Shown piece after piece: positions 8,639 through 62,272 of a stretch of DNA of 64,000 bases. The stretch spans positions 1 through 64,000 of IMG/VR virus record IMGVR_UViG_3300042887_001670. The stretch is one strand, 5' to 3'. Both the position numbers and the translations under genes were made by a program. Numbering within the stretch: position 1 is the stretch's first letter; each line of letters opens with the position of its first letter. Source of the stretch: a virus. The notes under the pieces were generated by a model that saw only the letters and a list, made by a program, of their open reading frames with translations, ran no database searches and was not told the DNA's origin.

Positions 8639-8658
8639 TTTTTTTGTGCCTTTAGTTT

Positions 8659-8735
8659 TGGTGTAAGCGGCAGGACTCGAACCTGCACCCAGCCTGTTAT
8701 GAGCAGGCCGCTCTATCCAATTAAGCTACGCTTAC
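8659..8735 (-). tRNA. tRNA with CAU anticodon (Met, or Ile2)
   Basis: The 77-nt tRNA has a perfect 7-bp acceptor stem (GTAAGCG/CGCTTAC), discriminator A, encoded CCA, a D-arm starting AGCTTAATTGGATAGAGC, T-loop TTCGAGT and anticodon loop CTCATAA. CAU can be elongator Met or, if lysidinylated, Ile for AUA; sequence alone does not settle this. Its first 4 nt overlap the stop end of the upstream CDS (8732-8735). Confidence 0.92.
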
Positions 8736-35828: not shown

Positions 35829-35837
35829 GCTCGTGCC

Positions 35838-36590: not shown

Positions 36591-37036
36591 ACTTTCTTCC
36601 CTTTCCTCGGCTTCGTCATTTTCAACATATGCCTGCTGCCTTCCATGTCCTTTTGGATCGGCAGGCTTAGTGCCTCGCCAAGCCCTTCCAATGACCGTGG
36701 AAGGGCCATGGCTGCCGCCATGGCGGCTGTGCAGAACCATTGCTCCAACGCCACAGGGGCGCAGCCATAGTGCGCTACGGCGATGTTCTTAGTAATCAGC
36801 CGTTCGAACTGCGCATTGTGCGCAAAAATCGGAAAACCCTGCCTGATATGCTTGTTCAAATCCATGGGCCACGGAAGATCAGGCGTCCATATCTGGACAG
36901 GTTCTGCGTTACGGCTATACCCCATGCACAGGATATCGGTGCTGGGGTGTTCAGCGTAGCGGTAGATGCCCACCAATTTGAGATTGGCGGTGGATTTAGT
37001 TTCGTAGTCAATGTGGTAAATGGGTGTATCTTGCAT
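36587..37036 (-). CDS. DNA polymerase exonuclease fragment (Exo I and II)
   Basis: The 149-aa protein resembles the N-terminus of phage family A polymerases: Exo I IDYETKS (residues 9-15), YRYAEHPSTDILCMGYS, Exo II IFAHNAQFER, and SLEGLGEALSLPIQKD. It ends MLKMTKPRKGKKV, just where intact relatives continue to Exo III, here in the polymerase gene. A terminator lies immediately upstream, and no clear ribosome site precedes the ATG. Confidence 0.85.
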   Translation of the reverse strand: MQDTPIYHIDYETKSTANLKLVGIYRYAEHPSTDILCMGYSRNAEPVQIWTPDLPWPMDLNKHIRQGFPIFAHNAQFERLITKNIAVAHYGCAPVALEQWFCTAAMAAAMALPRSLEGLGEALSLPIQKDMEGSRHMLKMTKPRKGKKV

Positions 37037-37038
37037 TG

Positions 37039-37069
37039 GAAAAAAGAAGGGGCATTTCTGCCCCTTCTT
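37039..37069 (-). terminator. Terminator between the SSB-like and exonuclease genes
   Basis: A 10-bp stem (AGAAGGGGCA, 37045-37054, with TGCCCCTTCT, 37059-37068) and a GAAA loop on the minus strand is followed by a run of T, 9 nt after the upstream stop. It would lower transcription of the polymerase genes relative to the SSB-like gene. Confidence 0.85.
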
Positions 37070-37077
37070 CTCCTGCC

Positions 37078-37650
37078 TTAGAACAAGTCCTTGGCATCGC
37101 CTTCGCTGATATTGCTGCCAGCAACATCATCGAAGTCGTTATCAGCGCTGCGCCCGCCGCCAGTTGCGATACGCTCGCCATCGTCAATGAACTGAACATT
37201 GTTCAGTCCAAACGACACGCCCTTGTTGCCGCTGTTGTCATACCCGAAAGCATTGACGCTCGCGCGCACGAAGCAGCCAGGGTAGAGGCGATCTTCGTCG
37301 GTGATGACAGGGAACTTGCCTTCGACCTTCTTGCGGTCCACTACCTTGGGCTGCTTCTTGCTGCTTACGGTGATGAAGATGCAATCGTCGTCAAAGCCAG
37401 CGGTGCCTTCCTTGTCGGAACCAGGACGGAAAGGCGAACGCACATTCTTTGGCGGCTTTTCACCAAACTTGGCCTTAGCGGCAGCGCCCGCCGCCTTCTT
37501 CAGATTCTGAAACTCGGCGGTTTCCTGCGCGGCCTTGTCGAACACAAGAACACAGGAAAACTTCGGCGTGTTGCCATTGAACCCACGAGGCTCAAACAGA
37601 GCGGGAAAAGCAAGTCGGGCCTTGGGGGTAACTACGTTCGTCTCGCTCAT
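37078..37650 (-). CDS. Single-stranded DNA-binding protein (DUF2815)
   Basis: The 190-aa product starts at ATG 37650 (MSETNVVTP). It matches DUF2815 SSBs: PKARLAFPALFEPRGFNG, FSCVLVF, LYPGCFVRASVNAFGYDN and a final acidic tail (DFDDVAG, EGDAKDLF) that recruits partners in SSBs. It coats ssDNA in replication and recombination. Confidence 0.82.
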   Translation of the reverse strand: MSETNVVTPKARLAFPALFEPRGFNGNTPKFSCVLVFDKAAQETAEFQNLKKAAGAAAKAKFGEKPPKNVRSPFRPGSDKEGTAGFDDDCIFITVSSKKQPKVVDRKKVEGKFPVITDEDRLYPGCFVRASVNAFGYDNSGNKGVSFGLNNVQFIDDGERIATGGGRSADNDFDDVAGSNISEGDAKDLF

Positions 37651-37741
37651 CTGAGCGTTCTCCTTGGAGCCGGGTTGGCGTGCATTTTGCCCCTTGTGCG
37701 CGCACACCATTGCCCAGCCACGATGTTAAAGAGGGGCAAAA

Positions 37742-38968
37742 TTATTCGTAGTTGCGGAAGCCGTCATGGTCCAACGCCAACGTGTCATCAAACTCTCCGC
37801 CGATCTGGACCACAACTGCGGGCCGTTTGTCGGATAGCGATGCGATGGTGTTGCCTGAAGATACTGCCACAATGACCTCTGCCAGTCTATCCTTAATCGC
37901 CTTCTTCTTACCAAGTTTTTCCTCGGCTTGCGCGGGCGAGATTAGCTTGCGCGTGAAGATATCGTCATCCTCAAGACCCATGCTATTCAGGAGGTCAATG
38001 GCATCATCTTCGCTTTGCCACTTGCGCTGCGCCCGCTTGGCTACGAGCTTGTAGCCGGGGACAACGCCACCCTGTTCCAACTTACGCTGCGCGTATGCTT
38101 GGACAGAGTTGATCCACCCCTTGAATACATCGGCCTTGGCGAGAATCTGGCCGATCTGTTCTTCGCTCAGGCCCTCGGGCTCAGGGGGCAAAAAACCATC
38201 GTCAAACTCCGCTTGTGCCAGTGCTACCGCCTGTTCGTGTAGGCGAGGGCACTTAGGCTGCGCCAAGCAGAACCGGCAATGGTCGCCCGCGTTAAGGGCA
38301 GCATCGGCCTCCTGCGTCTTGTGTGCTGCGGCGAGAAGGTCATCCGCGAACTCGATGCGAAGTGAGTAGGCGTCTGTCTCGAAAGACCTGATATGCCCAT
38401 CAGCATGGCGGTAGCGGGGCTGCACGATGACCATACGGATATGGCGCGGGAAGATGCCTTCCTGTGCCTCCAAAGCCAGCATGGCGCCCAAGGCATAGTA
38501 AGAAAGCTGAGGAGAGTTCTGCACCTTCACAGGCACACCAGCGCCATACTTCAGGTCCATTACGGTCAGGCGCTTCTCACGTTCATTCCAGATGACCGCA
38601 TCCGCTGTGCCAAACATAGGCACAGGCGGATTAAGGGCCTCTAGCGTGAACCGTTGTTCGATGAACAGTTTGTTGCCTTTGGCTTCGGCCAGCACCGCGT
38701 CAACATAGACCTGCACCGCCTCAGCCATATCTTCCGTGACTTCAAAGCCCTCAATCTCCTGCTCTAAGAAGTCAGAAGCAGGCTTGCCTTGGCGCAAGCA
38801 CATCTCCGCCAACTCGTGTGCTGCGGTGCCTTCGCGTGCATATTCAGAAGAGATATTTGGCATCCCCTCAGATAGATTGACAGAGCCAGGGCAGGCGATC
38901 CACCGAGAAGCGGAACTCGCGCCCAAAGAAGCATGGGCACGATCAGCATGGACAGGCAGGTTAGACAT
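37742..38968 (-). CDS. DUF2800 Cas4/RecB-type nuclease
   Basis: The 408-aa protein has a PD-(D/E)XK site (GTADAV with D123, DLK with D138 and K140, Q154) and four cysteines (C26, C231, C234, C240) placed like the Fe-S clamp of Cas4/AddB nucleases. It is probably an exonuclease used in recombination or DNA processing, paired with the SSB-like gene downstream. Confidence 0.82.
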   Translation of the reverse strand: MSNLPVHADRAHASLGASSASRWIACPGSVNLSEGMPNISSEYAREGTAAHELAEMCLRQGKPASDFLEQEIEGFEVTEDMAEAVQVYVDAVLAEAKGNKLFIEQRFTLEALNPPVPMFGTADAVIWNEREKRLTVMDLKYGAGVPVKVQNSPQLSYYALGAMLALEAQEGIFPRHIRMVIVQPRYRHADGHIRSFETDAYSLRIEFADDLLAAAHKTQEADAALNAGDHCRFCLAQPKCPRLHEQAVALAQAEFDDGFLPPEPEGLSEEQIGQILAKADVFKGWINSVQAYAQRKLEQGGVVPGYKLVAKRAQRKWQSEDDAIDLLNSMGLEDDDIFTRKLISPAQAEEKLGKKKAIKDRLAEVIVAVSSGNTIASLSDKRPAVVVQIGGEFDDTLALDHDGFRNYE

Positions 38969-39482
38969 TGATTATGGCCCGTGTGATAGCGCGATAGTAT
39001 TTCATGCACGCTTGGGCATCAAAGTCGGATACTCGCGCCATTTGTGTGTTGTCCGCAATCTCCTTACGAGTTGCGTCAGGACCGATTTCAGAGAGTCGCG
39101 CAGAAAGTAGATCGCGGCAATACTTGCGGCCTTGCTCTACGTTTTTAGCAAACCATTCGTCGGGGAACATCGGAAAATCACGTTCTTCCACATTAAACGT
39201 ATCGCTGTGGTAGGCGTCCATTTCCTGACAGTCTGCCGCTTCTTCCACAATCTCGATCTGTTGCGGCTCTACAACGGCCACGGATACTACCGTAGAAGCG
39301 TCAGTCTTGCGCGGCCTGCCGCGTGGGCGCTTCTCACCTGTAGAGGCAACAGTGGTCGTATTCTCCACCGTATCCTCTTCTAGGCTCACGCCCGCAAGAA
39401 GGTGGATAGCGTCGTTAGAAATCCTGTGGATGCCTTTGATCGCCGTCTCGGCAATCAGGGCAATCGCTTCGTTGCGGTCCAT
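38961..39482 (-). CDS. Hypothetical 173-aa protein with AT-hook
   Basis: The protein contains an AT-hook-like RPRGRPRKTD (about residues 52-61), after which a Val-rich linker leads to a helical C-terminus (FDAQACMKYYRAITRAIINV). Minor-groove DNA binding is likely. It overlaps the DUF2800 gene by 8 nt. Confidence 0.65.
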   Translation of the reverse strand: MDRNEAIALIAETAIKGIHRISNDAIHLLAGVSLEEDTVENTTTVASTGEKRPRGRPRKTDASTVVSVAVVEPQQIEIVEEAADCQEMDAYHSDTFNVEERDFPMFPDEWFAKNVEQGRKYCRDLLSARLSEIGPDATRKEIADNTQMARVSDFDAQACMKYYRAITRAIINV

Positions 39483-39492
39483 CTTATACCCC

Positions 39493-40902
39493 TTAGAGCA
39501 TGATTTCGCTGATTTGCTTTGACTTGCGTATGATAACGCGAGTCAAATCTTCATCAATCGAGCCAGCCAATACCACGTATCTGGCAAGCACGCTAGAACT
39601 TTCTTGGCCAATTCGGTGCGCCCGCGCCGCTGCTTGGACGTTCTCGGCAGGGGTCCACGACGGTTCCATAATCAAAACATTATCGCTTGCCGTCAGCGTA
39701 ATGGCAGAGTTAGTAGCCGTGATCTGCCCAATAAAGACACGGATATCCGGTTTGCCTTGAAAGTCATCAATCGCCTTTTGTCGAGTATTCCGTGCGGTGT
39801 CCCCTGTAATCACGACAGGGGAAAAGGCTTTGAGCTTTTCCGCTACTTGTGAGATAACTTCTCGATGGTAGCAGAACAAGATAATCTTCTTCGCGCCATT
39901 CTCCAATTCTTCTTTGATGAAATCACTTGTCGGCTCTACTTTTGCAAGCCCGACAGCGCGGCGCAAGGATGCAAGCGCTTGCTTATCCGCATTACGAAGA
40001 ATATCGTCTGATAAGGTGCCGTCTTTGTTATGGTGGTTTGCAGCCGCTGCGGCCAGGACGGCTTTGACTTCTGAGATAGCTTGCGTTTTCTCAAGCGCCA
40101 TCACTTCCTTGAGCGCGGACTTGGGCGGCTCAAGAACAATCGTGCCCCATTGGAGTGCGGGCAACTGCGTCAACACATCTTCTTTCTTACGTCTGATGAA
40201 GAAACCATCAATACGTTGGCGCAATTCGCCTGTATTTTTGTTGCCTTTAATACGCTCAACTGTCCGCATACCAAAATGCAGTATGTCCAAAACGCAAAAG
40301 TATTTTACGAATTGAGCATAGGTCATACGCCCGTCTGGCGTTTGTAGCCGCTCGGAGGCTAGTGCGCGTAGGTGCGTGTAGATTTCTGAAGCGTTGTTTG
40401 GCAGCGGAGTGCCAGTTAGAATCCATGTGCGTTTGGTGGCGGCTAGAATGCCGCCTTGGCCGTTAAGCCTTTCGCCATAGACTGCTTTCGTGCGTAGGGC
40501 TGTTCGGTTCTTAAGTGCGTGCGCTTCGTCAATGATAAGAAGATCAAACCCCATATCAAGGATTTTAGCGCGTAGTGTAGGATTGGCGAGCATATCGTAG
40601 CTGACAATAACCACATCTGCTTCAAGTGGAATGTCAGACTTGATATTTTTAATCACGAAAGTTGTTCGTGGAATTATCTGCCAATTCAGCATTTCGCGCT
40701 GCCAGTTGATCCGCGCCACGGCAGGACAAACGACTAGAATGCGGCGCAGATTAAGGGCATCCGCCGCCCTGATCGCCTGCGCCGTTTTACCAAGCCCCAT
40801 GTCGTCAAAAAGACCGGCATTGGAGTTGTCGGTCTTTTTGGCAACAAGGAAGTTGACGCCTTCAATCTGGTAGGGGAGAAGGCCGTCTTGCCAGTTAGGC
40901 AT
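39493..40902 (-). CDS. SNF2-like SF2 helicase/translocase
   Basis: The 469-aa protein has Walker A DMGLGKT (34-40), DEAH (125-128), LTGTPLPN, and motif VI ARAHRIGQ near residue 430. This SWI2/SNF2-type arrangement is common in phages and may remodel replication or recombination structures. Its start overlaps the RuvC-like gene by 8 nt. Confidence 0.9.
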   Translation of the reverse strand: MPNWQDGLLPYQIEGVNFLVAKKTDNSNAGLFDDMGLGKTAQAIRAADALNLRRILVVCPAVARINWQREMLNWQIIPRTTFVIKNIKSDIPLEADVVIVSYDMLANPTLRAKILDMGFDLLIIDEAHALKNRTALRTKAVYGERLNGQGGILAATKRTWILTGTPLPNNASEIYTHLRALASERLQTPDGRMTYAQFVKYFCVLDILHFGMRTVERIKGNKNTGELRQRIDGFFIRRKKEDVLTQLPALQWGTIVLEPPKSALKEVMALEKTQAISEVKAVLAAAAANHHNKDGTLSDDILRNADKQALASLRRAVGLAKVEPTSDFIKEELENGAKKIILFCYHREVISQVAEKLKAFSPVVITGDTARNTRQKAIDDFQGKPDIRVFIGQITATNSAITLTASDNVLIMEPSWTPAENVQAAARAHRIGQESSSVLARYVVLAGSIDEDLTRVIIRKSKQISEIML

Positions 40903-41377
40903 TGCTCAACCCATAATAGGCCAACAACGCACTCTCCGCCCTACCATCGTCCTTTACGCGCTTAAACAAATCTACCTTGTCAGGGAACAACGCCATCGCC
41001 TTCAAGCGCGCTCCTCCCTTGTCAGCAGGAATGTTCATGCGCCGCTTCCACGTTGCAGGGTGGACGAGCGTAGTAGGGATTTGAAGTGCCGCCAAGACCC
41101 CTTCGATCTGTCCAAGATTGCGCCCAAAAGAGAAAGCGCCGACAGCGCCTTCTCCTGGTCGAACGCCGACACTTTCAAGGAATGCCTTCTGCGGTGCCAT
41201 GTTTTTTATCATAGCCGCGAGTGCCGCAGGGGGCACGCTCCTGCGCTTCTTACCGTTAACGACGACTTCGATAGTCGGCATGTCCTCGATAGCAAGAACT
41301 TTACCGTTTTGGTCAAGCAGGGCCAAAGCCCCGCTTAGACCTGGGTCGATGCCAAGGATCAAAATACGTCGCCCCAC
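40895..41377 (-). CDS. RuvC-like Holliday junction resolvase
   Basis: The 160-aa protein has the RNase H-like acidic sites ILGIDPGLSGA (D11), FLES (E68) and DDGRAESALLA (about 143-153). It should resolve four-way junctions before packaging. Translation starts at GTG 41377, 19 nt inside the nrdB end. Confidence 0.87.
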   Translation of the reverse strand: MGRRILILGIDPGLSGALALLDQNGKVLAIEDMPTIEVVVNGKKRRSVPPAALAAMIKNMAPQKAFLESVGVRPGEGAVGAFSFGRNLGQIEGVLAALQIPTTLVHPATWKRRMNIPADKGGARLKAMALFPDKVDLFKRVKDDGRAESALLAYYGLSNA

Positions 41378-42315
41378 TCACCCTTGGTCGCCGCCTTGCT
41401 ATACTCAGTGGCGCGGTTCTCGAAAAAGTTGGTATGCTCTGGTGCGTTCAGCAACTCATCGAGCCAAGGTAGGGGGTTGTCCTTGACCTTGTAGATTGGC
41501 ACCATACGCAACTGAAGCAAGCGCCTATCTGCGATGAAGCGGATATACTGCTTGATTTCATCGGCAGTCATGCCATGCACGGGGCCTAGAGCAAACGCCA
41601 AATCAATGAACGCATCTTCATGCTCTACGATAGTCTTGCAGATTTCGTAGATTTCAGCCTTGAGCGAGTCGTCAAAAAGACTTGGATTTTCCGCGCAATA
41701 GGTATGGAAAAGCCGGATGATATTCTCACAGTGCAACGTCTCGTCTCGAACAGACCACGCAATGATCTGCCCCATGCCTTTCATCTTACCAAAGCGAGGG
41801 AAGTTAAGGAGCATGGCAAAAGAAGCAAAAAGTTGTAGCCCTTCAGTAAAGGCACCGAAGGCTGCGAGCGTTTTAGCTACCTCTCGTGGATTGTCCGTCG
41901 AGAAGCTGCTGAAGTAGTCATACTTGTCGCGCATCTCCTTGATCTGCATGAAAGTGGTGTATTCACTCTCAGGCATTCCGACCGTATCGAGAAGATGCGA
42001 GTAAGAAGCGACATGGACTGTTTCGCTAGTCGCAAAAGCGGACAGCATCATGACCACTTCGGTTGGCTTGAAGATAGGCAGATAGTTGTGGACATAGTTT
42101 TCCGCCACGGACGCATCAGCTTGCGTGAAGAAGCGAAAAATCTGTGTCAGTAGGTTCTTCTCAGAAGGCTCTAGGCGCTTCTGCCAATCACGCACATCGT
42201 CTGCCAGGGGCACTTCCTCTGGAAGCCAGTGGATGCGCTGCTGCTGAAGCCACGCATCATATGCCCAAGGATAGCGGAAAGGCTTGTAGCCGATGGACGG
42301 AGTGGTGAGAGACAT
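41359..42315 (-). CDS. nrdB: Ribonucleotide reductase small subunit (class Ia-type)
   Basis: The 318-aa protein has the ferritin-like diiron ligands (ADASVAENY, ETVHVASYSH, TEGLQLFASF, RDETLHCENI) and a radical-Tyr candidate in ASYSHLL. It pairs with NrdA encoded at 50276-52051 on the same strand but 8 kb away, with the fibre operon in between. It reduces NDPs to dNDPs. Confidence 0.93.
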   Translation of the reverse strand: MSLTTPSIGYKPFRYPWAYDAWLQQQRIHWLPEEVPLADDVRDWQKRLEPSEKNLLTQIFRFFTQADASVAENYVHNYLPIFKPTEVVMMLSAFATSETVHVASYSHLLDTVGMPESEYTTFMQIKEMRDKYDYFSSFSTDNPREVAKTLAAFGAFTEGLQLFASFAMLLNFPRFGKMKGMGQIIAWSVRDETLHCENIIRLFHTYCAENPSLFDDSLKAEIYEICKTIVEHEDAFIDLAFALGPVHGMTADEIKQYIRFIADRRLLQLRMVPIYKVKDNPLPWLDELLNAPEHTNFFENRATEYSKAATKGEWGDVF

Positions 42316-42354
42316 GGCGTTCCCTTTCCAGGCTTAGTGGTTCGCAGGACGCGC

Positions 42355-42383
42355 AACTTACTCCCCCTTGACGGCGCTGGCAA
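42355..42383 (-). promoter_or_regulatory. Candidate nrdB promoter
   Basis: TTGCCA (42378-42383) and TAAGTT (42355-42360) are 17 bp apart on the minus strand. The -35 region overlaps the rightward promoter candidate, so the two divergent operons may compete. Confidence 0.4.
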
Positions 42384-42398
42384 GTGCTTTCCTATTGT
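42368..42398 (+). promoter_or_regulatory. Candidate promoter of the fibre operon
   Basis: TTGACG (42368-42373), a 19-bp spacer and TATTGT (42393-42398) precede the fibre gene by 65 bp. The spacer is longer than ideal. Confidence 0.35.
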
Positions 42399-42463
42399 GT
42401 TTGAGCGACGCTGTATGGTAGGGAACAGGATAGGCCCTGCTGCTGATTTCCAAGGGACATCTG

Positions 42464-45400
42464 ATGCCAATCACCATTTCGCTCTACAACCATACTGTTG
42501 CGCGTTTTGCTTCGGGTGCCAACGCCGCCAGCGACACATATAAGTTTAAGCTGCTGACTGCTGCAACGTTTGATGCGGCTCATACGACTTTGGCTCAGAC
42601 AGGTGGGACCCAATCAGGTTCTTCTACTGGATATCCTGCCGGTGGCGCCACGCTGACTGGTGTTTCCATCGTGGTGGTTGCCCTTAATGCGGCCCGCTTT
42701 GATGCTGATGACGTGAGTTTAACGGCGACGGGTGGTTCAATTACTGCCAGTTACGGTATTCTCTATAATGACACTGACACAGATGATCCTCCGGTCGCAT
42801 TTGTGGATTTTGGTGGGTCGCAAACCGCCGCCAATGGCAGCCCTTTCAACGTGGTCTGGAACGGCTCGGGTATTGTCACCTGGGTCACAGATGATACGTC
42901 TCTCTATACGCTTCCTGCTGCGACCGCCAATAACCTTGGTGGCGTGCGCGGCGGCGCCAACCTAACTCTCAGCCAAGATGGTGTTCTTAGCCTCAGCAGC
43001 ACCAACGTCATTTCTGCCCTTGGCTTGACGCCCGTTAATTCGGCAGGGGCTGCTGCGGCGGCCCCGGTGCAGTCCGTGGCTGGTCGAACTAATGCGGTGG
43101 TGTTGGGTGCGGGCGATATTACCTCTGGAATCTTTGACGCCGCGCGTCTGCCTTTAGCTACAGGTAGCACAGCGGGGGCTGTCATCGGTGGTTCAAACTT
43201 AAGTCTCGCTGGCAACGGCACGCTCAGCCTTAGCAGCACCAATGTCATCAACGCACTTGGCTTGACGCCTGTTGATTCGGCAGGGGCCGCTGCGGCTGCG
43301 GCTGCTGCACTAAATTCATCCTTGCGCCTCTACGTGACGACCACAGGTAGCGACAGCAATGCGGGCACATCCCCTGCGTTGCCCAAGCGCACTATCAAGG
43401 CTGCCGTGGAATCCGCTGCTGCGGGCACAACAGTTTTTGTTGAATCAGGCAATTACGTCGAACAAAACCCGATCAATTTCCCTGCGCGTGTCTCTCTTGT
43501 TGGAGATAACCTGCGTCGCGTGGATGTTCGCCCAACCAACCCTACTCTTGATATTTATCATTTGCAGTCGGGTTGCTATGTCTATGGCGTCACCTTTCGC
43601 GACCACGCCGCGCCCGCATACGCTTGCGCCTTCCCTTGCGCCACGGCACGCGCTACGGTTAATGGCAGCGGCGTCATCACAGGCCTGACACTGCTTTACA
43701 GCCCGTCTGGATACTCGTCTGCGCCTGAGGTATGGATTGAGCCTCCGTTCAACGGGGGCACGCAGGCGACCGCGACGGCGAATATGTCAGGTGGCCTGAT
43801 TACAAGTTTCACGATAGTCGAAGGCGGCTCTGGGTATGATGCGACTGACCGCCCTTGTGTCTCGATTAAGCACCCGTCCCCGCCTTCCATCACAAGTTCG
43901 CCTTATGTACAGAACTGCTCGTCCATCACCGGGCCGTTTGACACGACAGGTGTGGCCTTTGCCTCTAACCTAATCGTGCCGCCATATGATGAAAATAACG
44001 TAGCAGGCACAGGGCGTATTATTGATCCTCGCGGTGCCGGTGGCGGCATCCGTGTGGATGGTCAGGTGGTGGCAAGCGGTAGCCCACTAAACAGTTTCGT
44101 GGCAGACGCCTTTACCCAAATCAACCAAGGTGGCCCTGGCCATCTAATTCTAAACAAAGGATACGCGCAGTTCGTTTCCTGCTTCACCACATTCTCGCAT
44201 ACGGGTTACGAAGCACGCGCAGGCGGTTTCGCCAACGTCTCAAATAGCGTGCTTGACTTCGGCACTTACGGTTTGCGTGCGCGGGGTTATTACCCTGTGG
44301 CCCAAGTAAGCGGCACGGCGGATGCTACCCTCCGCAGCACGGTTGCTGGCTTTACGGTCACGAATGGCGGTAGTAACTACACCAGCCCGCCCACGGTTGC
44401 GGTCTCTGGCAACGCTACGGCAGTCGCAGTTATTGAGAATGGCGCCGTGGTTGCCGTGAACGTCACGTTTGCTGGTAGTGGATATACAAGCGCGCCTAGT
44501 GTCTCGTTCTCAGGTGGCAACGGTTCTGATGCTGCGGCTACGGCACAATTGGCGAGTTCGGGAAGCATTACGGTAGCCGGGTTATCCCGTCGCCCTGATG
44601 TGGGCACCACGGTTGCCAAGATCGGTGGTAACTTCTATTCGATCACGGGCGCATCGCCTCTTGTTGGTGGTAAAAGCACGCTATCCATCTACCCTGGCAT
44701 CCCATCTGTTGACGCGGGTAACGCGGTTGATGTCCATGACGTTTCGTTGATTACATCCGGCTCGCTTGTCACAGAATATGTGGGGAGCGGTGTCACCTAC
44801 AACGCGCTTCCCAAGTTTGGCGGCATCCCCAATCCAACCAATGCTATTTCAACCACGGCACCTGGGCGCATCTACTATGCGATGCTGACGGAGACGGGCA
44901 ATTTCTCTATCGGCCCGTTCTTCTCAGTGGAACAGTCTACAGGCACGGTCACAATCAATAGCGATCAGTTCAATTTGGCAGGCCTTTCATCTATCGGGCC
45001 TTTCAAACGCAATGGTGTCGCAGTTGGCGTGCAATTGCAAGAACTGTCAAATAACGCCACGCTTCTAGCCAGCACAGGCCAGAATGACGGCAATACAGCG
45101 CCAACACAATTTGCCGTCAAGACTTATGTAGATGGCCGCACGCTTGATAATCTGGCTGACGTGGTAGCAACAAGTCCCTCGGCTGGGCAGGTCTTAGCGT
45201 GGAGCAACGCCAATCAGCGATGGGAGCCTAAGAGCCTTGTCGTAGCAGATGTGTCGGGCGCTGTGCCTGACACGCGCAGCGTCTCCACGGGGACGGGCCT
45301 GAGCGGGGGTGGCGCTCTGTCCGCTGACCGCACTCTAGCACTTGCCAATACCGCCGTTACGGCGGGGGCTTATGGCACTGCTTCTGGGGTCGCGACGTTC

Positions 45401-47020
45401 ACCGTTGACGCGCAGGGGCGCTTGACCAATGCTTCTACCCTAAGCATCACTCCTGCGGGTATCGGCGCTGTGCCTGATACGCGCAGCGTCTCAACGGGGA
45501 CGGGCCTAAGCGGTGGTGGCGCTCTCTCCGCTGACCGCACTCTAGCACTTGCTAATACCGCCGTTACGGCGGGGGCTTATGGCACTGCATCTGGGGTCGC
45601 GACATTCACCGTTGACGCGCAGGGGCGCTTGACCAATGCTTCTACCCTAAGCATCACTCCTGCGGGTATCGGCGCTGTGCCTGATACGCGTAGCGTTTCT
45701 ACGGGGACGGGGCTGAGCGGGGGTGGCGCTCTGTCCGCTGACCGCACTCTAGCACTTGCTGATACCGCCGTTACGGCGGGGGCTTATGGCACTGCATCTG
45801 GGGTCGCGACGTTCACCGTTGACGCGCAGGGGCGCTTGACCAATGCTTCTACTGTAACCATCACCCCTGCGGGTATCGGCGCTGTGCCTGATACGCGTAG
45901 CGTTTCTACGGGGACGGGGCTGAGCGGGGGTGGCGCTCTGTCCGCTGACCGCACTCTAGCCCTTGCTAATACCGCCGTTACGGCGGGAGCTTATGGCACT
46001 GCATCTGGGGTCGCGACGTTCACCGTTGACGCGCAGGGCCGCTTGACCAATGCTTCTACCCTAAGCATCACTCCTGCGGGTATCGGCGCTGTGCCTGATA
46101 CGCGCAGCGTCTCCACGGGGACGGGCCTGAGCGGGGGTGGCGCTCTGTCCGCTGACCGCACTCTAGCACTTGCTGATACCGCCGTTGCGGCGGGGACTTA
46201 TGGCACCGCGTCTGGCGTAGCAACGTTCACCGTTGACGCGCAGGGCCGCTTGACCAATGCTTCTACCACCGCCATCTCCATCACCGCAGCAGCCGTGAGC
46301 GGGCTTGCGACTTCCGCCACCACCGACACCACGAACGCCGGTAACATCACCAGCGGTACGCTGGTGGCGGCCAATGGCGGCACCGGACAGACGAGTTATA
46401 CGGTGGGCGATCTGCTCTATGCCTCGGACAGCACTACTCTCGCGAAACTGGCAGGCGTGGCGACGGGCAACGCACTCATTTCCGGCGGTGTCGGCACAGC
46501 GCCGAGCTTCGGCAAGATCGGGCTGGCCACGCATGTGAGCGGGACGCTGGCTGTGGCGAACGGCGGGACCGGTGGCACAGATGCTTCGACGGCTCGGACC
46601 AACCTAGGTCTTGGCACTGCCGCCACTAAGGCTGGGCCAACTGGCGACATTGTTGGCACGACGGACACCCAGACACTCAGCGCCAAAACGCTCACCAACC
46701 CGACCGTGACAAACTACACGGAGACGGTGGCGACTTCGACCGGCAGCACGACCATTGACCTCACCAACGGCACGTTGTTCAAAATCACGACGAACGGGGC
46801 CGTGACCATCACGCTGCCGTCCAGTGTGGCGGGGAAGAGCTTTGTGGTGATTGTGGCCTATGGTGGTGTGCATACGGTCACTTGGGCTGGTGGATCGACG
46901 CTGAAATGGGCAGGCGGCACGACGCCGACCGCCACAAGCGTCAACGCGAAGTTTGATATTTTCACGTTCTTCTGCGATGGCACCAACACGTATGGCAGCA
47001 TCTTCGGACAGAACTTCTGA
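42464..47020 (+). CDS. Large tail fibre/spike with beta-helix and tandem repeats
   Basis: The 1,518-aa protein starts with a small fibre domain (SLYNHTVARFASGANAAS) and two near-identical Ser/Ala repeats. A parallel beta-helix region follows (about residues 285-700, LYVTTTGSDSNAGTSPALPK to SGSITVAG), then five 69-aa repeats (about 933-1277) and a C-terminal tip (NGAVTITLPSSVAGKSFVVIV). It is likely the main receptor-binding fibre. It opens a seven-gene plus-strand operon. Confidence 0.85.
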   Translation: MPITISLYNHTVARFASGANAASDTYKFKLLTAATFDAAHTTLAQTGGTQSGSSTGYPAGGATLTGVSIVVVALNAARFDADDVSLTATGGSITASYGILYNDTDTDDPPVAFVDFGGSQTAANGSPFNVVWNGSGIVTWVTDDTSLYTLPAATANNLGGVRGGANLTLSQDGVLSLSSTNVISALGLTPVNSAGAAAAAPVQSVAGRTNAVVLGAGDITSGIFDAARLPLATGSTAGAVIGGSNLSLAGNGTLSLSSTNVINALGLTPVDSAGAAAAAAAALNSSLRLYVTTTGSDSNAGTSPALPKRTIKAAVESAAAGTTVFVESGNYVEQNPINFPARVSLVGDNLRRVDVRPTNPTLDIYHLQSGCYVYGVTFRDHAAPAYACAFPCATARATVNGSGVITGLTLLYSPSGYSSAPEVWIEPPFNGGTQATATANMSGGLITSFTIVEGGSGYDATDRPCVSIKHPSPPSITSSPYVQNCSSITGPFDTTGVAFASNLIVPPYDENNVAGTGRIIDPRGAGGGIRVDGQVVASGSPLNSFVADAFTQINQGGPGHLILNKGYAQFVSCFTTFSHTGYEARAGGFANVSNSVLDFGTYGLRARGYYPVAQVSGTADATLRSTVAGFTVTNGGSNYTSPPTVAVSGNATAVAVIENGAVVAVNVTFAGSGYTSAPSVSFSGGNGSDAAATAQLASSGSITVAGLSRRPDVGTTVAKIGGNFYSITGASPLVGGKSTLSIYPGIPSVDAGNAVDVHDVSLITSGSLVTEYVGSGVTYNALPKFGGIPNPTNAISTTAPGRIYYAMLTETGNFSIGPFFSVEQSTGTVTINSDQFNLAGLSSIGPFKRNGVAVGVQLQELSNNATLLASTGQNDGNTAPTQFAVKTYVDGRTLDNLADVVATSPSAGQVLAWSNANQRWEPKSLVVADVSGAVPDTRSVSTGTGLSGGGALSADRTLALANTAVTAGAYGTASGVATFTVDAQGRLTNASTLSITPAGIGAVPDTRSVSTGTGLSGGGALSADRTLALANTAVTAGAYGTASGVATFTVDAQGRLTNASTLSITPAGIGAVPDTRSVSTGTGLSGGGALSADRTLALADTAVTAGAYGTASGVATFTVDAQGRLTNASTVTITPAGIGAVPDTRSVSTGTGLSGGGALSADRTLALANTAVTAGAYGTASGVATFTVDAQGRLTNASTLSITPAGIGAVPDTRSVSTGTGLSGGGALSADRTLALADTAVAAGTYGTASGVATFTVDAQGRLTNASTTAISITAAAVSGLATSATTDTTNAGNITSGTLVAANGGTGQTSYTVGDLLYASDSTTLAKLAGVATGNALISGGVGTAPSFGKIGLATHVSGTLAVANGGTGGTDASTARTNLGLGTAATKAGPTGDIVGTTDTQTLSAKTLTNPTVTNYTETVATSTGSTTIDLTNGTLFKITTNGAVTITLPSSVAGKSFVVIVAYGGVHTVTWAGGSTLKWAGGTTPTATSVNAKFDIFTFFCDGTNTYGSIFGQNF
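45260..46294 (+). repeat. Five 207-bp tandem repeats inside the fibre gene
   Basis: Units start at 45260, 45467, 45674, 45881 and 46088, exactly 207 bp (69 codons) apart, each beginning GCTGTGCCTGA and encoding VPDTRSVSTGTGLSGGGALS. DNA identity is very high, with scattered silent changes; the last unit diverges at its end. Recent in-frame duplication is the simplest reading. Confidence 0.95.
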
Positions 47021-50115: not shown

Positions 50116-50279
50116 TCGACGGACCCGTTCTCCCCGCCAGCGTCTTCCTTCCCGCTTTCATACGCCTCCATGACCTTGCCATGAACAAACATGGCAACCT
50201 CTAAGCGCGTCTCATTGCTGAGATTGGGGAAATACTCTTTCAGATCGAAGTAGATATCGGTCTGGGTAGGGACTCTCAT
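50112..50279 (-). CDS. Small hypothetical protein coupled to nrdA
   Basis: The 55-aa product starts at ATG 50279, in an ATGA overlap with nrdA and 7 nt after GAGG. The helical, acidic sequence (YFDLKEYFPNLSNETRLEVAM) has no recognised family. Confidence 0.6.
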   Translation of the reverse strand: MRVPTQTDIYFDLKEYFPNLSNETRLEVAMFVHGKVMEAYESGKEDAGGENGSVD

Positions 50280-52051
50280 TGACATACCTCGCATGTTTCG
50301 CCGTCATTGGCGTTCTTGGCAGGGATTTTTTCGCTTACAACTTCAGCGCGTTGCACCGAAAGAGATCGGCAATAGTATAGCCCCTTGAGGCCAGATTTCC
50401 ATGCCCGCATGTGCGCTTCGTGAAGTTCCTTCTTCGTGGTATCCGCAGGAAAGAACAGGTTCACAGACTGGCCTTGGTCGATAAACGGTTGACGGTCTGC
50501 GGCGAGGCGGATGATGAAGTTCTGGTCAAGTTCAATAGCAGTCTTGAACGTCGCCTTCTCCCAATCGGTCAAGAACTCAAGGTGCTGGACACTGCCCTTG
50601 TTTGCCACGATGCTGTCCCAAGTGTCCTTTGTATTCTTACCATACTTGTTAAGAACCGCAGACAGGTAGGTATTTCGGACAGGGAAAGAACCAGAAAGGG
50701 TCTTTTGCGTGAACACGTTTGCGGGCCATGGCTCGATACAGGGCGAGACTCCGCCACAAATGATTGAGATGGACGCTGTGGGGGCGATTGATGTCTTGTT
50801 CGAGAACCGCTTGTGGAAGCCTGCTTCCTCAGCGTCAGGGCAAGGTCCGCGCTCGTCTGCAAGCACCCTGTCCGCTGCTTCAACGCGGTCTTGGATATGC
50901 TTGAAAATCTTCTTGTTCCAGGCAATCGCAGAAGGCGACTCGAAGGGCACGCCTTGGCTTTGTAGGAAGGAGTGGAAGCCCATGACGCCTAGGCCCACAG
51001 AACGCTCCTGCGTGGCGCTGTAGATGGCTGCAGCCATGCTTGGTGGCGCACGGTCGATGAAGTCCTGTAGGACGTTATCAAGGAAGCGCATAACATCCTC
51101 GATGAACTTCGGTGTGTCCTTCCAACTCATGTAGGTATCGAGGTTGAGGGAGGACAGGCAACATACTGCCGTTCGCATCTCCCCGTGATGGTCGCGGCCT
51201 GTAAATAATACCACCTCGTTGCAAAGGTTTGACGTGCTAACAAACAAGTCTAACTTCTTATGATGCTCTGGGATATGCTTATTCACAGTATCAACAAACA
51301 GAAAATAAGGCTCGCCCGTCTCAATGCGTGCTGTCAACAGCCTGACCCAAAGCGCGCGTGCGTCAAGCGTTTTGAGGACAGCGCCATTTTTGGGGCTAAC
51401 AAGGTTCCACGTCTCGCCTTTCTCTACAGCGTGCATGAAGGAGTCAGGGATGACGACCGCGTGGTGTAGATTGAGGGACTTGCGGTTAGTATCCCCGCCA
51501 GTAGGGCGGCGCATTTCGATAAATTCTTCGATCTCAGGGTGGCTCACGTCTAGGTAGACAGCCGCAGAACCACGACGCAGGCTGCCTTGGCTTACCGCTA
51601 GGGTCTGGCTGTCCATGACCTTGAGGAAGGGCATGATGCCGCTGCTCTCGCCACGTGCGCCAATGCTTTCACCCACGGCGCGCACGTTGCCCCAATAAGT
51701 GCCGATGCCGCCGCCGCCAGACGCCAGCCACACGTTCTCATTCCAAGTGCCAACGATGCCTTCGAGATTGTCTTCAACCTCATTTAGAAAACAACTAACT
51801 GGGAGCCCGCGCGTAGTGCCCCCGTTGGCTAGGACAGGCGTGGCAGGCATGAACCAAAGCAGGCTCATATATTGATATAGACGCTCAGCGTGCGCCTTAT
51901 CATCGGCGTATGTACAAGCAACGCGGGCGAATAGGTCTTGATAGCTTTCGCCGGGGAGAAGGTAGCGATCCTTTAGGGTTTGCTTACTGAAGTCCGTCAG
52001 GAAAACGTCACGGCTACGGTCAACGGCAATAGAAAAACGCTTGGCGCTCAT
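50276..52051 (-). CDS. nrdA: Ribonucleotide reductase large subunit
   Basis: The 591-aa protein has NLCNEV (active-site Cys), CCLSSLNLDTYMSW, SNKTSIAPTASISIICGG and the C-terminal shuttle CEVCQ (C587, C590). It lacks the N-terminal ATP-cone, so overall activity control by dATP is probably absent. It works with NrdB (41359-42315). Confidence 0.95.
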   Translation of the reverse strand: MSAKRFSIAVDRSRDVFLTDFSKQTLKDRYLLPGESYQDLFARVACTYADDKAHAERLYQYMSLLWFMPATPVLANGGTTRGLPVSCFLNEVEDNLEGIVGTWNENVWLASGGGGIGTYWGNVRAVGESIGARGESSGIMPFLKVMDSQTLAVSQGSLRRGSAAVYLDVSHPEIEEFIEMRRPTGGDTNRKSLNLHHAVVIPDSFMHAVEKGETWNLVSPKNGAVLKTLDARALWVRLLTARIETGEPYFLFVDTVNKHIPEHHKKLDLFVSTSNLCNEVVLFTGRDHHGEMRTAVCCLSSLNLDTYMSWKDTPKFIEDVMRFLDNVLQDFIDRAPPSMAAAIYSATQERSVGLGVMGFHSFLQSQGVPFESPSAIAWNKKIFKHIQDRVEAADRVLADERGPCPDAEEAGFHKRFSNKTSIAPTASISIICGGVSPCIEPWPANVFTQKTLSGSFPVRNTYLSAVLNKYGKNTKDTWDSIVANKGSVQHLEFLTDWEKATFKTAIELDQNFIIRLAADRQPFIDQGQSVNLFFPADTTKKELHEAHMRAWKSGLKGLYYCRSLSVQRAEVVSEKIPAKNANDGETCEVCQ

Positions 52052-57670: not shown

Positions 57671-58114
57671 ATGCAGATCAACATGGGGGAGCCTTATTGG
57701 CTCTTTGACCGTTCGCAGGTCCGACGCCTTGAAGCCGATGCTCTCTACGTAGGCGACTTTGCGGTGCGCAGCAGCAAGGGCATTTGGTCCTCTATCCCTG
57801 TGGCCGTGTTCTATACCCCGAAGCCCCGTGAGGGCTACACCAACCACTACTTTGGCGTCTACAAGTCCCAAGCGAGGCTTGATATGCCAACTTGGATGAT
57901 CTGCGACGCAACTTCAGTTGCGACTCACCTTTGGCACGGATTGGAGATGAAGGGCGAAGTTATCTTCTCTCGCTGGCGCCATGACTTTAGGTGTTTCTCC
58001 TTCGGTGGCCCTTACGTCGATGGTGGGGCTGACTATACGCGGGTTGTAGGGCTTACCAACCTCGCGAAAAACGTTTCACTGCGCCTCGTAGACGGTATTT
58101 TTAAGGTAATCTGA
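57671..58114 (+). CDS. Conserved hypothetical protein upstream of the primase
   Basis: The 147-aa protein is beta-rich with several Trp and Tyr residues (EPYWLFDRSQVRRLEADALY, FRCFSFGGPYVDGGAD). No family is recognised. It is coupled to the primase-helicase (TGATG), so a replication role is possible. Confidence 0.65.
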   Translation: MQINMGEPYWLFDRSQVRRLEADALYVGDFAVRSSKGIWSSIPVAVFYTPKPREGYTNHYFGVYKSQARLDMPTWMICDATSVATHLWHGLEMKGEVIFSRWRHDFRCFSFGGPYVDGGADYTRVVGLTNLAKNVSLRLVDGIFKVI

Positions 58115-61100
58115 TGCACTTCATCTTCGCGTGCGACCACCCACAACGTAAGACGTTCACGATGAGTGGGTCTTTCAAACCCATTCAGAAGCCCGCAAAG
58201 GCCAATACATATTGGATTTCTGACGTAGTTAGTGGAGTAGACAGCCTTGAAAGCCTGTCTGCTGCTATCAAGGGGCGTTTGAAGCACCCAAAGGGTGAGA
58301 GGTTTGCAGTCATGCGTGGGGTTTGGCACCCCCTGGCGGAGATGTGTGCTTTGGAGGAGCAGCGTAAGGCACATATCACGGAGATGGGAAAACAGGGCAA
58401 GCCCGTTCCTGCTTCGCAGATGGTGCCCTTTGTGCGGAAAGGCGAAAAGCATCCGCATTTCCTACGCCGTAAGGGCATCGTGCAGGACTTGCCGGTAAAT
58501 TGGGTTTGTTTTGATTTCGATGGCCTTCAGATTGAAGGCATGGGCGACTTTGACGTGGCCAACCCGGTGCCGTGGGCGCAAAAGGCAATCGGGGTGGAGC
58601 TTGGCCCTGATTTTGCTTGCGCTGATTACGTGCTGCAACTTTCTTCCTCAGCGGGCCTAAAGCCTGGAATCTCAGCGCATTGTTGGTTTTGGCTGGAACA
58701 GCCGATGGATGGAGCGGCGTGGCGGGCATGGTATTCACGCAGGACGCGCGAATTGGGCCGCAAGCCTCGCATTGATAAGACCCTCTTTGAGCGTGAGCGT
58801 ATTCACTATATCGCCACGCCAAAGTTCGACGGTGGCACAGTAGACCCTGTGGCCGAAGCGGGGCAGGACAGGTATATCTTGGTTGAGAATTTTGATAACC
58901 AAGTCTACCTCAAAGACGTAGAAGGGCTTCATACGGAGGCGCAAGCTGAACGTGAGGAGGTCACGGTTGATTTCTCCGATGAAAGTGAGCGCGCACAGGA
59001 GGCTTTTAACCGTCCCGGTGTGATCGGCGCCTTCAATCGGTGCTTCTCCATATCGGACTGCATCAATCGCTTTCTATATGACCATTACCGCATAGACACG
59101 CGCGATGGCCGCGTGACGTGGCTCAAGAGTGATAGTGGGGCTGCTGGTGGGTGCCGCATCGTGGCTGGCAACACGCGGATGTTCTCGACGCACAATGGTG
59201 ACCCGCTTGAAGGCTATGTGGGCACTGCCTTCGACCACATCCAAGCCGTGCTGTTTGATAACGATTATACGTCTGCCGCAGAGTGGGCGCGCACTCTGCC
59301 TGAAGTGGCGGCAGAGATGGAGCGCGTGGAAATGGGGGTGTTTGATGACGAAGCCCCTTTGGAGAGCTTCAAAGCTGACGTAGCCTTAGCCACGCCTGGC
59401 GGCGCTGAGAGCGTTAAGGTCGAGACACCAGAAGATGTGATGGCGGAATATCCGATGCCGAAGAAGTGGCACGGACAGGCAGCCTCCTACCGCCTCGCGG
59501 AAGGTGTGTGGTGGTATGGCTATGAGAAGGCGGAGGAGGAAGACGAGGAAGGCTCGAAGAAGAAAAAGAAGAAGGGCGGTGGGCCTTTCGTCAGTCTTTG
59601 GACACCTATTACCTTTGTCCGCGAATTTGTCTCGGCCAATAGCGGTGAGATTACAACTGAATATAAGCTGCGCGATAAGTGGGGCAAACCCGTCTCGGTG
59701 ATGATCGAGAAGGGCAGGGTCGTTTCCGCGCCAACCGACGTGCTTGCTCGGCTTCACTCCCTTGGTTGGTTGTTCGAGATTAACGCGGATAAGGCATTCC
59801 TGCACTATATGCGCGTGAAGTCCCCTGACGTGGTTTATTCATCCCTTGATAACAGAGGGTGGGACAAGCGAGGGGTGGCGTTCGCCGTTCCTAGTGGGGC
59901 CATCTTTGGTGCCTCTGACGCCATTCTCAGGCCTGACCTCGTGGTGGGGGAGAAGGTGTCTCGCGGCGGCAGCCTTGAAGGATGGCGCGGCGTTATAGAC
60001 GGCGTGTTGGACTTGGAAGGCTGCGCGCATTGGGCTTTGGCCGTGGCTGCGGGCTTTGCGGGGCCGTTGGTTGGGTTGCTCAATTTGCCGACGAGTGGTT
60101 TGGCTTTGTGCGGTGAAACCTCCAAGGGCAAGACGACCGCATTGAAATTGGCGGTTTCCGCTTGGACCTCGCCAGACCCACAGGCTAACCGCGATGGTGG
60201 CTTGCTTGTGAGCCTGCGAGGCACATCGAACTCTGTGGATGTGTTGGCTGAGAACGCCAACCATACGATCTTGGCCTTGGACGAGACGGCCATGATGCAG
60301 GCGAAGGACTTGGAGAGCCTTGTGTTCTCCGTGACCTCTGGTGCGGGCAAGGCGCGCATGAACATCACAGGGCAAGGGCTGCGCAAGTCGTCGGTGTGGC
60401 AGACGTTCGTTCTGATCTCAGGCGAACAGGGCCTTGCTCAGCGGTTCGAGGATGCCACAGGCAAGAAGATGGCCAAAGGCGCTGCGGCCCGGCTGCTGGA
60501 CGTGGACGTGGACGCTCTTGACGTTGTGGTGACGGACGTAGAGGCGTTGCGGCGCCTTGAAGCAGGGGTTCTTGAGAACTTTGGTTGGGCGGGGCCTGCC
60601 TTTGTGGAGGGATTGGTCAAGGGTGGCTTCGTTGATCGCGTCGGGGAGTTGCAGGCTCGCCTAGGCCAGCATGAGTTGAGGCTTGGTGAGAACAGGACGG
60701 GGTTGGTGTCCCGCGTGGCGCGCGTGGCGGCGCTGCTGGCCCTGGCTGCGGAGTTGGCTGAAGAGTTTGGCATCTTGTCGGTGGGAAGTGCAGAGCGGAT
60801 TTCTAGCGCCATTCTCGCCGTATGGGGTGCTTTTGAGGAGAGCGCTGCGGCGAACTCGGAAGAAGCGATTGTGGATGACGTGCGGCAGTGGATTGCCAAG
60901 CGCCTCAACATGTCGATCTTCGCCGTAGATGACACGTCACGCCACAGCGTTGAAGCGGATGGATGGCATGATGGAGAACTGGTTTATCTCCTTGCGGATA
61001 GGATCACTCAGCCGAGCAAAGGCGCAAACAGGCAAGCGAATGTGGTGAAGGCGCTTAGCGCGGTGGGTGTGTTGCAGCGCCAAAAGAAAGCGCAGGCGTC

Positions 61101-61215
61101 TTCCTCGTATATTCCAGGGCGCGGTGACAACATCGCCCACTACAGGATAAGCGCCAAAGCCCTCGGTATCATGCTCGATCCCGAGTTTGAGATAGAGCCC
61201 TCCGCTGCGGAATAA
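58114..61215 (+). CDS. Primase-helicase with DUF927 ATPase
   Basis: The 1,033-aa protein has an N-terminal primase-polymerase-like half (VCFDFDGLQIEG, KPGISAHCWFW, RIDKTLFERERIHYIATP), a Lys-rich linker (SKKKKKKGGG, about residue 486), and a DUF927 helicase-type ATPase with Walker A GETSKGKT (667-674) and Walker B LDETAM (D723, E724). It likely loads and unwinds at the origin immediately downstream. A start at 58114 (AAGGT, TGATG) is preferred over ATG 58162. Confidence 0.82.
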   Translation: MHFIFACDHPQRKTFTMSGSFKPIQKPAKANTYWISDVVSGVDSLESLSAAIKGRLKHPKGERFAVMRGVWHPLAEMCALEEQRKAHITEMGKQGKPVPASQMVPFVRKGEKHPHFLRRKGIVQDLPVNWVCFDFDGLQIEGMGDFDVANPVPWAQKAIGVELGPDFACADYVLQLSSSAGLKPGISAHCWFWLEQPMDGAAWRAWYSRRTRELGRKPRIDKTLFERERIHYIATPKFDGGTVDPVAEAGQDRYILVENFDNQVYLKDVEGLHTEAQAEREEVTVDFSDESERAQEAFNRPGVIGAFNRCFSISDCINRFLYDHYRIDTRDGRVTWLKSDSGAAGGCRIVAGNTRMFSTHNGDPLEGYVGTAFDHIQAVLFDNDYTSAAEWARTLPEVAAEMERVEMGVFDDEAPLESFKADVALATPGGAESVKVETPEDVMAEYPMPKKWHGQAASYRLAEGVWWYGYEKAEEEDEEGSKKKKKKGGGPFVSLWTPITFVREFVSANSGEITTEYKLRDKWGKPVSVMIEKGRVVSAPTDVLARLHSLGWLFEINADKAFLHYMRVKSPDVVYSSLDNRGWDKRGVAFAVPSGAIFGASDAILRPDLVVGEKVSRGGSLEGWRGVIDGVLDLEGCAHWALAVAAGFAGPLVGLLNLPTSGLALCGETSKGKTTALKLAVSAWTSPDPQANRDGGLLVSLRGTSNSVDVLAENANHTILALDETAMMQAKDLESLVFSVTSGAGKARMNITGQGLRKSSVWQTFVLISGEQGLAQRFEDATGKKMAKGAAARLLDVDVDALDVVVTDVEALRRLEAGVLENFGWAGPAFVEGLVKGGFVDRVGELQARLGQHELRLGENRTGLVSRVARVAALLALAAELAEEFGILSVGSAERISSAILAVWGAFEESAAANSEEAIVDDVRQWIAKRLNMSIFAVDDTSRHSVEADGWHDGELVYLLADRITQPSKGANRQANVVKALSAVGVLQRQKKAQASSSYIPGRGDNIAHYRISAKALGIMLDPEFEIEPSAAE

Positions 61216-61228
61216 ATCAGAAAAATAC

Positions 61229-61262
61229 CCCCCGAATTAATTTAATTCGGGGGATTTTTTTT
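61229..61262 (+). terminator. Terminator of the primase-helicase gene
   Basis: CCCCCGAATT (61229-61238) and AATTCGGGGG (61244-61253) form a 10-bp stem with a 5-nt loop, then eight Ts. Confidence 0.9.
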
Positions 61263-61284
61263 GACCGAGCGCCGAGACAGCGCC

Positions 61285-61625
61285 GTTTTTGGATGGTTCT
61301 GGATGGATTGGATGGTTCTGGATGGAAAATTGGATGGTTTGCATCGCCATAAGTCCTTGATAAACCTCATTTTGGATGGTTTGGATGGTTTGGGTGGTCA
61401 CTTTATACAGTCTGGCTCAGAGAGGGGGAAAATAAATAGGATAAATATTTTTGGATTATTTATCTCTCCATCTTTCTTTCTTTTCAAAAAGATATAAAAC
61501 AACCATCCAAACCATCCAAACCATCCAAACCCCCTTTTTCCCAAAGGTTTTTCAAGGGGTTATGAAATTGGATGGTTTGCCATTTTCCGCAACCCTAACC
61601 ATCCAATCCATCCAATCCATCCAAG
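61285..61625 (+). repeat. Iteron array, putative replication origin
   Basis: The longest gene-free stretch (about 400 bp). GGATGG within TTGGATGGT is repeated forward at 61291, 61301, 61310, 61320, 61332, 61374, 61383 and 61570 (variant at 61392), and reversed (CCATCC) at 61503, 61512, 61521, 61599, 61608 and 61617, mostly 9-10 bp apart. An AT-rich patch (61430-61500) lies between the blocks. Short ORFs here only translate the repeats. Confidence 0.7.
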
Positions 61626-61663
61626 GCTTGAAATCCCCCTACGGCGCCGTCCATACCAAGTGC

Positions 61664-62272
61664 ATGAGCATTTTGATCTTCGATACCGAGACTTCCGGCC
61701 TGATAGACAGGCGCTTTGAAGCCGAAGACCCTGAGCAGCCTGACGTGGTGCAGTTGGCCGCGTTGCTCTGCGGCGATGACGGTGAGGTTCTCTCCACCGT
61801 CTCGTGCTTAGTGCGCCCCGACCTCAAGGCCATCCAGCCGGGTGCTGCTAAGGTGCATGGCATCACGCAGGCGAAGGCTAACGCGCACGGCTTGGAGGCG
61901 CCTGCGGTGCTGGGGGCGTTCGGGGCGATGGTGGACCGCGCTGACGTGTTGGTTGCCCACAACCTCGCCTTTGACGCTCTCGTGCTTCGGACTGCTTGGC
62001 ACCGCGCCTTTGGCGCCGACTTCCGGGAACGCCTCTATGGCAAGCGGGCGTTCTGCACGATGAAGGCTATGACCCCTGTATGCAAAATCCTCTCAGGACG
62101 CTCCAAGCATAAGACGGACTACAAGTGGCCTAAGCTCAGCGAGTGCATCGACTTCTTGTTTGCTGAGCGCCTAGAGGGGGCGCATGATGCCCTTGTGGAC
62201 GCGAGGGCGTGTGGCCGGATATACTTTGAACTGCAACGCAGGAAGGGTCTTGCGGACAATCAGGAGGGCTAA
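61664..62272 (+). CDS. DnaQ-like 3'-5' exonuclease (DEDDh)
   Basis: The 202-aa protein has Exo I FDTETSGL (D7, E9), AHNLAFDALVL and the DEDDh end HDALVDARACGRIYFEL. ATG 61664 is the first start before the conserved domain; upstream codons are translated repeats. It may proofread in trans for the split polymerase or trim DNA (inference). Confidence 0.85.
   Translation: MSILIFDTETSGLIDRRFEAEDPEQPDVVQLAALLCGDDGEVLSTVSCLVRPDLKAIQPGAAKVHGITQAKANAHGLEAPAVLGAFGAMVDRADVLVAHNLAFDALVLRTAWHRAFGADFRERLYGKRAFCTMKAMTPVCKILSGRSKHKTDYKWPKLSECIDFLFAERLEGAHDALVDARACGRIYFELQRRKGLADNQEG

Follow-up and report, generated by a model that had tools for sequence, protein, structure and literature searches.

The SaPI/PICI type of replication origin is already known, and several other described systems bear comparison with it. 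In phage P4 the primase-helicase alpha binds the origin through a C-terminal domain, and the ori/crr sites contain short iterons; the classical iteron plasmid origin pairs a RepA-type initiator with a one-sided array of direct iterons of ~17-22 bp. In SaPIbov1 the Rep protein is a DUF927-type helicase, and SaPI origins are described as a number of short repeats immediately 3' of rep (PMC7581432). The full SaPI/PICI layout, seen in SaPIbov1 and in EcCICFT073 of E. coli, is an initiator helicase followed by two sets of short iterons that flank an AT-rich region (PMC6092414 Fig. 2; P4 alpha with its cognate ori is named in that paper too); a 2018 paper described this layout as known from no other replicon. 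The Cch protein of SCCmec contains DUF927, and Cch2, of the D5/Primase_Cterm kind, binds through its C-terminal domain short direct repeats behind cch2, the putative origin so bound having three 5-nt iterons (PMC7581432). Further afield, the crenarchaeal plasmid pRN1 cannot replicate without the sequence immediately 3' of its replication-protein gene, and its origin is a stem-loop in which the authors found no iterons (PMC4234260).

Here we describe an inverted iteron array in a tailed phage. The DNA analyzed, hereafter the window, is a stretch of 64,000 nucleotides from a virus record of 64,126 bp, almost the whole length of which it covers. The array is very probably the origin at which the DUF927 primase-helicase encoded just upstream starts replication, and would work like the SaPI/PICI origins. 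What is new is the occurrence of such a putative origin in a tailed phage, its spread behind many phage and prophage primase-helicase genes, and the concerted switching of its repeats.

An inverted iteron array behind a primase-helicase gene

An initial annotation had claimed at least 14 copies of GGATGG/CCATCC, spaced 9-10 bp, and our count agrees: 14 exact hexamers lie within 61291-61622, together with one degenerate copy, GGGTGG, at 61392. Under a Markov-1 model the 449-bp gap holds on average 0.7 copies and at most 5 (5000 draws), against the 14 observed; a chance origin of the array is excluded. The hexamer occurs 59 times across the whole window (31 expected), and the most-repeated 7-mer per 450-bp stretch reaches 14 copies in the array gap and no more than 6 elsewhere. 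The best repeat unit is a 9-mer, TTGGATGGT/A, so the motif exceeds the bare hexamer. Two overlapping GGATGG copies at 60957-60966, in the 3' part of rep, coincide with codons for the conserved stretch VEADGWHDG and are probably there by chance.

The first iteron lies ~75 bp 3' of the rep stop codon, and the order from there is five forward, three forward, an AT-rich core, three reverse, one forward and three reverse (Table 1), with hexamers at 61291-61337 and 61374-61397 (forward), 61503-61526 (reverse), 61570-61575 (forward) and 61599-61622 (reverse). Inside the blocks the spacing is 9-12 bp, mostly 9-10 bp, a distance at which neighboring copies would lie on roughly the same side of the helix. 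The arrangement around an AT-rich patch stands as first described, forward copies lying mainly to the left and reverse copies to the right of the AT-richest 100 bp of the contig. Ranked by AT content, the top five 100-bp stretches begin at 61401-61441, and the core is also AT-rich in the two relatives discussed below, L005 (73%) and L004 (75%).

Table 1. Coordinates of the array, its neighbors, and stretches that hold alternating purine-pyrimidine tracts at other loci.
Feature	Position	Strand	Detail
rep, DUF927 primase-helicase, 1033 aa, proposed initiator	58114..61215	+	Pfam, PHROG, phmmer
Codons of Rep residues 916-1033, putative C-terminal DNA-binding (winged-helix-like) domain	60859..61212	+	sequence alignment
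Two-way terminator hairpin between rep and array	61229..61253	+	hairpin kept with changed letters in L005, L004
Left outer block, five forward iterons	61289..61338	+	GGATGG at 61291, 61301, 61310, 61320, 61332
Left inner triple, forward	61372..61398	+	two TTGGATGGT, one TTGGGTGGT
AT-rich core, proposed DNA unwinding element	61399..61500	.	71% AT, 102 bp
Right inner triple, reverse iterons	61501..61528	-	place conserved in L005, L004
Single forward iteron right of core	61568..61576	+	retained in all three relatives
Right outer triple, reverse iterons	61597..61624	-	repeat positions
DnaQ-like exonuclease gene 3' of array	61664..62272	+	Pfam RNase_T E=8e-13
Stretch with alternating tract, L049	89-191		
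Stretch with alternating tract, L052	3148-3256		
Stretch with alternating tract, L057	14313-14439		
Stretch with alternating tract, L061	2782-2884		
Stretch with alternating tract, L064	3740-3840		
Stretch with alternating tract, L075	4617-4721		
Stretch with alternating tract, L079	6867-6969		

The neighbors are those originally named, a primase-helicase gene that ends at 61215 and a DnaQ-like exonuclease (RNase_T) gene that follows; the two-way terminator hairpin between rep and the array (Table 1) is an addition to the initial annotation. DUF927 is the sole Pfam domain of Rep above cut-off (E=2e-33), the PHROG label is DNA primase/helicase, and the nearest solved relatives by phmmer are the SaPI protein 8tch and the SCC 'active helicase' 5dgk. 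The C-terminus of Rep aligns with the C-termini of other DUF927 phage helicases. A winged-helix fold is plausible for it; AlphaFold models are of low confidence (mean pLDDT 57 alone, 45 with two relatives). The exonuclease gene probably starts at the ATG at 61664, conserved in L005 and L004, rather than at the mechanical ORF start at 61451. An Rfam search gave sub-threshold matches only, spanning the terminator, and GC skew, a check suggested with the initial annotation, gave no usable signal.

Tape measure, tail fiber and minor tail genes are present in the virus record. Elsewhere in the window, 33369-47017 and 50276-52048 encode a DNA polymerase, a RecJ/exonuclease-like protein, an SNF2-like helicase, both ribonucleotide reductase subunits and a 1518-aa tail-fiber-like protein, and phage genes for tRNA-Leu (caa) and tRNA-Met (cat) lie at 8150-8735.

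Similar arrays behind other primase-helicase genes

Viral and bacterial genome contigs were scanned, blind to the encoded proteins, for two TTGGNNGG units, a gap of 61-121 bp and two inverted units, the middle letters being left free; by our estimate this two-sided pattern should match by chance well below once per collection. The scan returned 37 loci (20 + 17), although several occur in both collections, so independent cases are fewer than counted; named hosts are mostly Alphaproteobacteria. Of the 36 loci that do not belong to the window's family, 29 have near the array a member of one D5-type primase-helicase protein cluster, with D5_N, Pox_D5, DUF5906, PriCT_2 or Prim-Pol domains. In 27 of these 29 the end of the primase-helicase gene is 5-155 bp away from the matched stretch; the distance is larger in L032 (237 bp) and L080 (944 bp). 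No D5-type gene was found within the slice at L066, L068, L071 or L072, which may be chance matches or cut off.

All four matched units carry one and the same middle dinucleotide in 32 of 38 arrays, window included, an agreement between arms that is trivial in L055, L062/L081, L063, L065/L077, L067 and L068 because these are near-perfect palindromes. The dinucleotides found are AA, GA, AT, AC, GC, TG, GG, CT and TT. Most of the palindromic loci still adjoin primase genes, on the 3' side; at all but L068 of those just named, inverted TTGGNNGG pairs lie 5-20 bp 3' of D5/Prim-Pol-type genes, and these palindromes may be a hairpin-type origin or terminators. Among arrays of the GGAAGG/GGGAGG type, mostly in sphingomonad prophages, there are cores without strong AT-richness that hold Z-DNA-prone alternating purine-pyrimidine tracts of 19-33 bp (Table 1), lengths never reached in 300 shuffles each; such a core may represent an unwinding element of a different type. 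Two other scans were set aside: a one-sided TTGGNNGG scan gave mostly unrelated repeats but yielded L032, and from it the two-sided pattern, and the inspected matches of a literal CCATCCAANCCATCCAANCCATCCAA scan were unrelated tandem repeats.

Loci were also chosen by D5-type protein alone, from Sphingomonadales, Hyphomicrobiales and the wider class. In 60% of the 90 loci with enough flank, a set that contains pattern-selected loci too, the 450 bp 3' of the stop codon hold five or more copies of some 7-mer; the same is true of 0% of control stretches inside the gene and 2% of those further downstream (Wilcoxon p=7e-14). Counted from the list, the purely protein-selected part gives 39/74, with controls at 0/74 and 2/74. 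Near relatives have GGAAGG or GGGAGG as their unit, and other loci CCCTCGC, AACTGTC, CCCTACA and more. A separate iteron class is seen in Hyphomicrobiales, where D5-type primase genes are followed by 5-13 CCCTCGC-like repeats (L132-L140, L146, L148, L149).

Among named DUF927 phages, four have an iteron of their own (phiAH14b GGGGAAC, FP_Epona GGTGAAA, THSA-485A GGTAACC and P12620-1 GAACCAA), present in 10-11 copies and both orientations in the gap directly 3' of the helicase gene. AC844P2 has only a weak array behind its helicase gene, and none was found there in U10 and Rollin, two of the seven named phages. Taken with the other comparative tests, the recurrence of this layout after the primase-helicase genes of numerous unrelated phages and prophages supports the earlier reading of the window's array as a candidate iteron origin.

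These neighborhoods also bear on the likeliest alternative, that the array is an operator through which a regulator, possibly Rep, controls the exonuclease operon, with replication beginning elsewhere. The array does lie directly upstream of the exonuclease gene, a terminator parts it from rep, and iterons can serve both roles. However, what recurs from locus to locus is the primase-helicase gene ending at the array, whereas the opposite neighbor differs between loci; no sigma-70-like promoter was found in 61150-61750, and fifteen copies flanking an AT-rich core are many for an operator. We consider this explanation improbable.

Concerted repeat change in close relatives

Three relatives of Rep were found among 2.9 million viral contigs, with the array region reached in two, and two further profile scans returned the same contigs only. 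The Rep of L005 is 94% identical to that of the window and its repeat unit is GGACGG, as in TTGGACGGT; the Rep of L004 is 78% identical and its unit is GGGCGG, as in TTGGGCGGT. Counted as a 7-mer, the repeat is present 14 times in the window's array and 13 times in that of each relative, at matching offsets from the rep stop codon, and all three arrays share the order triple-forward, core, triple-reverse, single-forward, reverse. The left inner triple, for instance, has its matching place in both, written with GGACGG and GGGCGG, respectively. The main copies have been altered together across the three, and the flanking GG and TT letters are unchanged. A survey of relatives had been suggested as a check on the initial annotation, absence of the repeat from close relatives with the same replication genes counting as refutation. 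Taken at face value that is the outcome, the literal GGATGG being lost in both L005 and L004, but the array is intact, its copies rewritten together, and the origin reading is supported.

The protein has changed in parallel. Between the window and L005, 24% of the last 83 residues of Rep differ, against 4% elsewhere (Fisher p=3e-9, for a boundary picked after the alignment was seen), so the C-terminus has diverged about six times as far as the remaining protein. Synonymous change is also raised in this region, which points to recombination as well as selection; the C-terminus and the array may thus have been exchanged as a recombined block, and the coupling between them would still hold. To judge from these alignments, the relatives apparently rewrote all of their repeats in step with the protein domain reading them.

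Joint change of this kind is difficult to reconcile with a DNA-structure element, whether two-tetrad G-quadruplexes built from the GG pairs or a cruciform, in place of protein-binding sites. In the TTGGNNGG loci a variable middle dinucleotide stands between invariant GG pairs, the inner arms of the window's array (37 nt) show 89% complementarity, and a cruciform could be preserved by concerted change. Yet free loop letters would be expected to drift copy by copy, the arms are interrupted and the copies directly repeated, and the units of related arrays (AACTGTC, GACGTGC, CGGATAG) lack two GG pairs, making this explanation highly unlikely. Equally so is a partition (centromere-like) or packaging site, where repeat arrays of similar size are also known, since the fixed neighbor across phages is a primase-helicase rather than a partition or terminase gene, the repeat changes along with the helicase C-terminus, and terminase, near some prophage arrays, is absent from the window's neighborhood.

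A possible residue-to-base rule

If the C-terminal domain reads the repeat, particular residues may track particular bases. In D5-type proteins, a Lys or His stands just before a conserved Ser of the C-terminal domain in 14/15 proteins with N3=G arrays, and a basic residue holds this place in 0/13 with AA arrays (Fisher p=7e-7). A one-residue rule was written down before a second protein-selected set was looked at, and that set mostly agreed with it. A strict form of the rule was rejected, L120 and L121 (GA arrays with Gln) being exceptions, and L055 (AC) and L151 (AG) have the basic residue without N3=G. A tree built without the rule columns shows no more than about five changes at N3, and phylogenetic pairing gives four supported independent pairs, 2-3 of them concordant and 0 discordant. 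In the DUF927 trio of the window, L005 and L004, the residue before an SS pair is S, T and K for AT, AC and GC arrays, and the change from T to C in the array goes with Arg in place of Gln994. The residue-to-base rule is suggestive, a lead only, since it is not significant with phylogeny considered. A broader version, in which DUF927/MCM-like and D5/SF3 initiators would both read TTGG-N3N4-GG through equivalent sites of a C-terminal winged helix, origin identity being switched by a change of the dinucleotide in every copy along with one or two reader residues, is tentative and on balance rather doubtful.

Proposed mechanism and implications

By analogy with the SaPI/PICI and SCC literature, we infer that Rep binds the array, melts it, is loaded in both directions and starts replication there. 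The C-terminal domain of Rep would bind the TTGGATGGT iterons, and the two opposed iteron sets would load two Rep rings; the AT-rich core would melt and the helicases move apart, outward, with the fused primase part of Rep starting synthesis.

The best reading of the comparisons is that each phage has its own repeat, switched along with the domain that reads it. In the ICP1-PLE system, an origin-directed nuclease reads the iterons of the initiator, and iteron changes escape the nuclease (PMC8263062); selection by origin-directed nucleases is a possible driver of repeat switching. Concerted rewriting of the repeats with Rep still 94% identical offers a natural experiment on joint change of initiator and origin specificity, and the recurring layout suggests a simple origin-finding rule for unannotated phage genomes, namely to look just behind the DUF927 or D5-type gene. 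A literature search, in which few subscription journals were covered, returned no description of such an origin in such tailed phages.

Comparison with known systems

The classical iteron plasmid origin does not fit this locus, where the proposed initiator is a DUF927 helicase and 9-mer units lie on both sides of the core. With pRN1 the window shares the place of the putative origin, just downstream of the replication-protein gene, the difference being that plasmid's stem-loop, in which no iterons were found. P4 alpha is, as far as known, of a different helicase type from Rep, and iteron sequence and site arrangement differ as well. The Cch2 site of SCCmec has three iterons, against 15 copies in the window, which form two opposed sets with an AT-rich core between them; its 5-nt iterons, with the short repeats of SaPIs, count against the initial remark that iterons this short are unusual (PMC7581432).

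The closest likeness is to SaPI/PICI origins. The proposed initiator helicase is of the SaPI Rep/Cch (DUF927) kind, the array lies directly 3' of rep, as it also does in L005, L004 and the four named DUF927 phages, and in the window two iteron sets flank an AT-rich region. As a mobile element, a PICI, that is, a small helper-dependent satellite without virion genes, was rejected on the tail and polymerase genes of the virus record. The host replicon here is not a satellite island but a tailed phage that itself encodes DNA polymerase, ribonucleotide reductase and tail proteins, the window's iteron sequence differs, a primase part is fused at the N-terminus of Rep, and the window's family switches its repeats in concert between close relatives.
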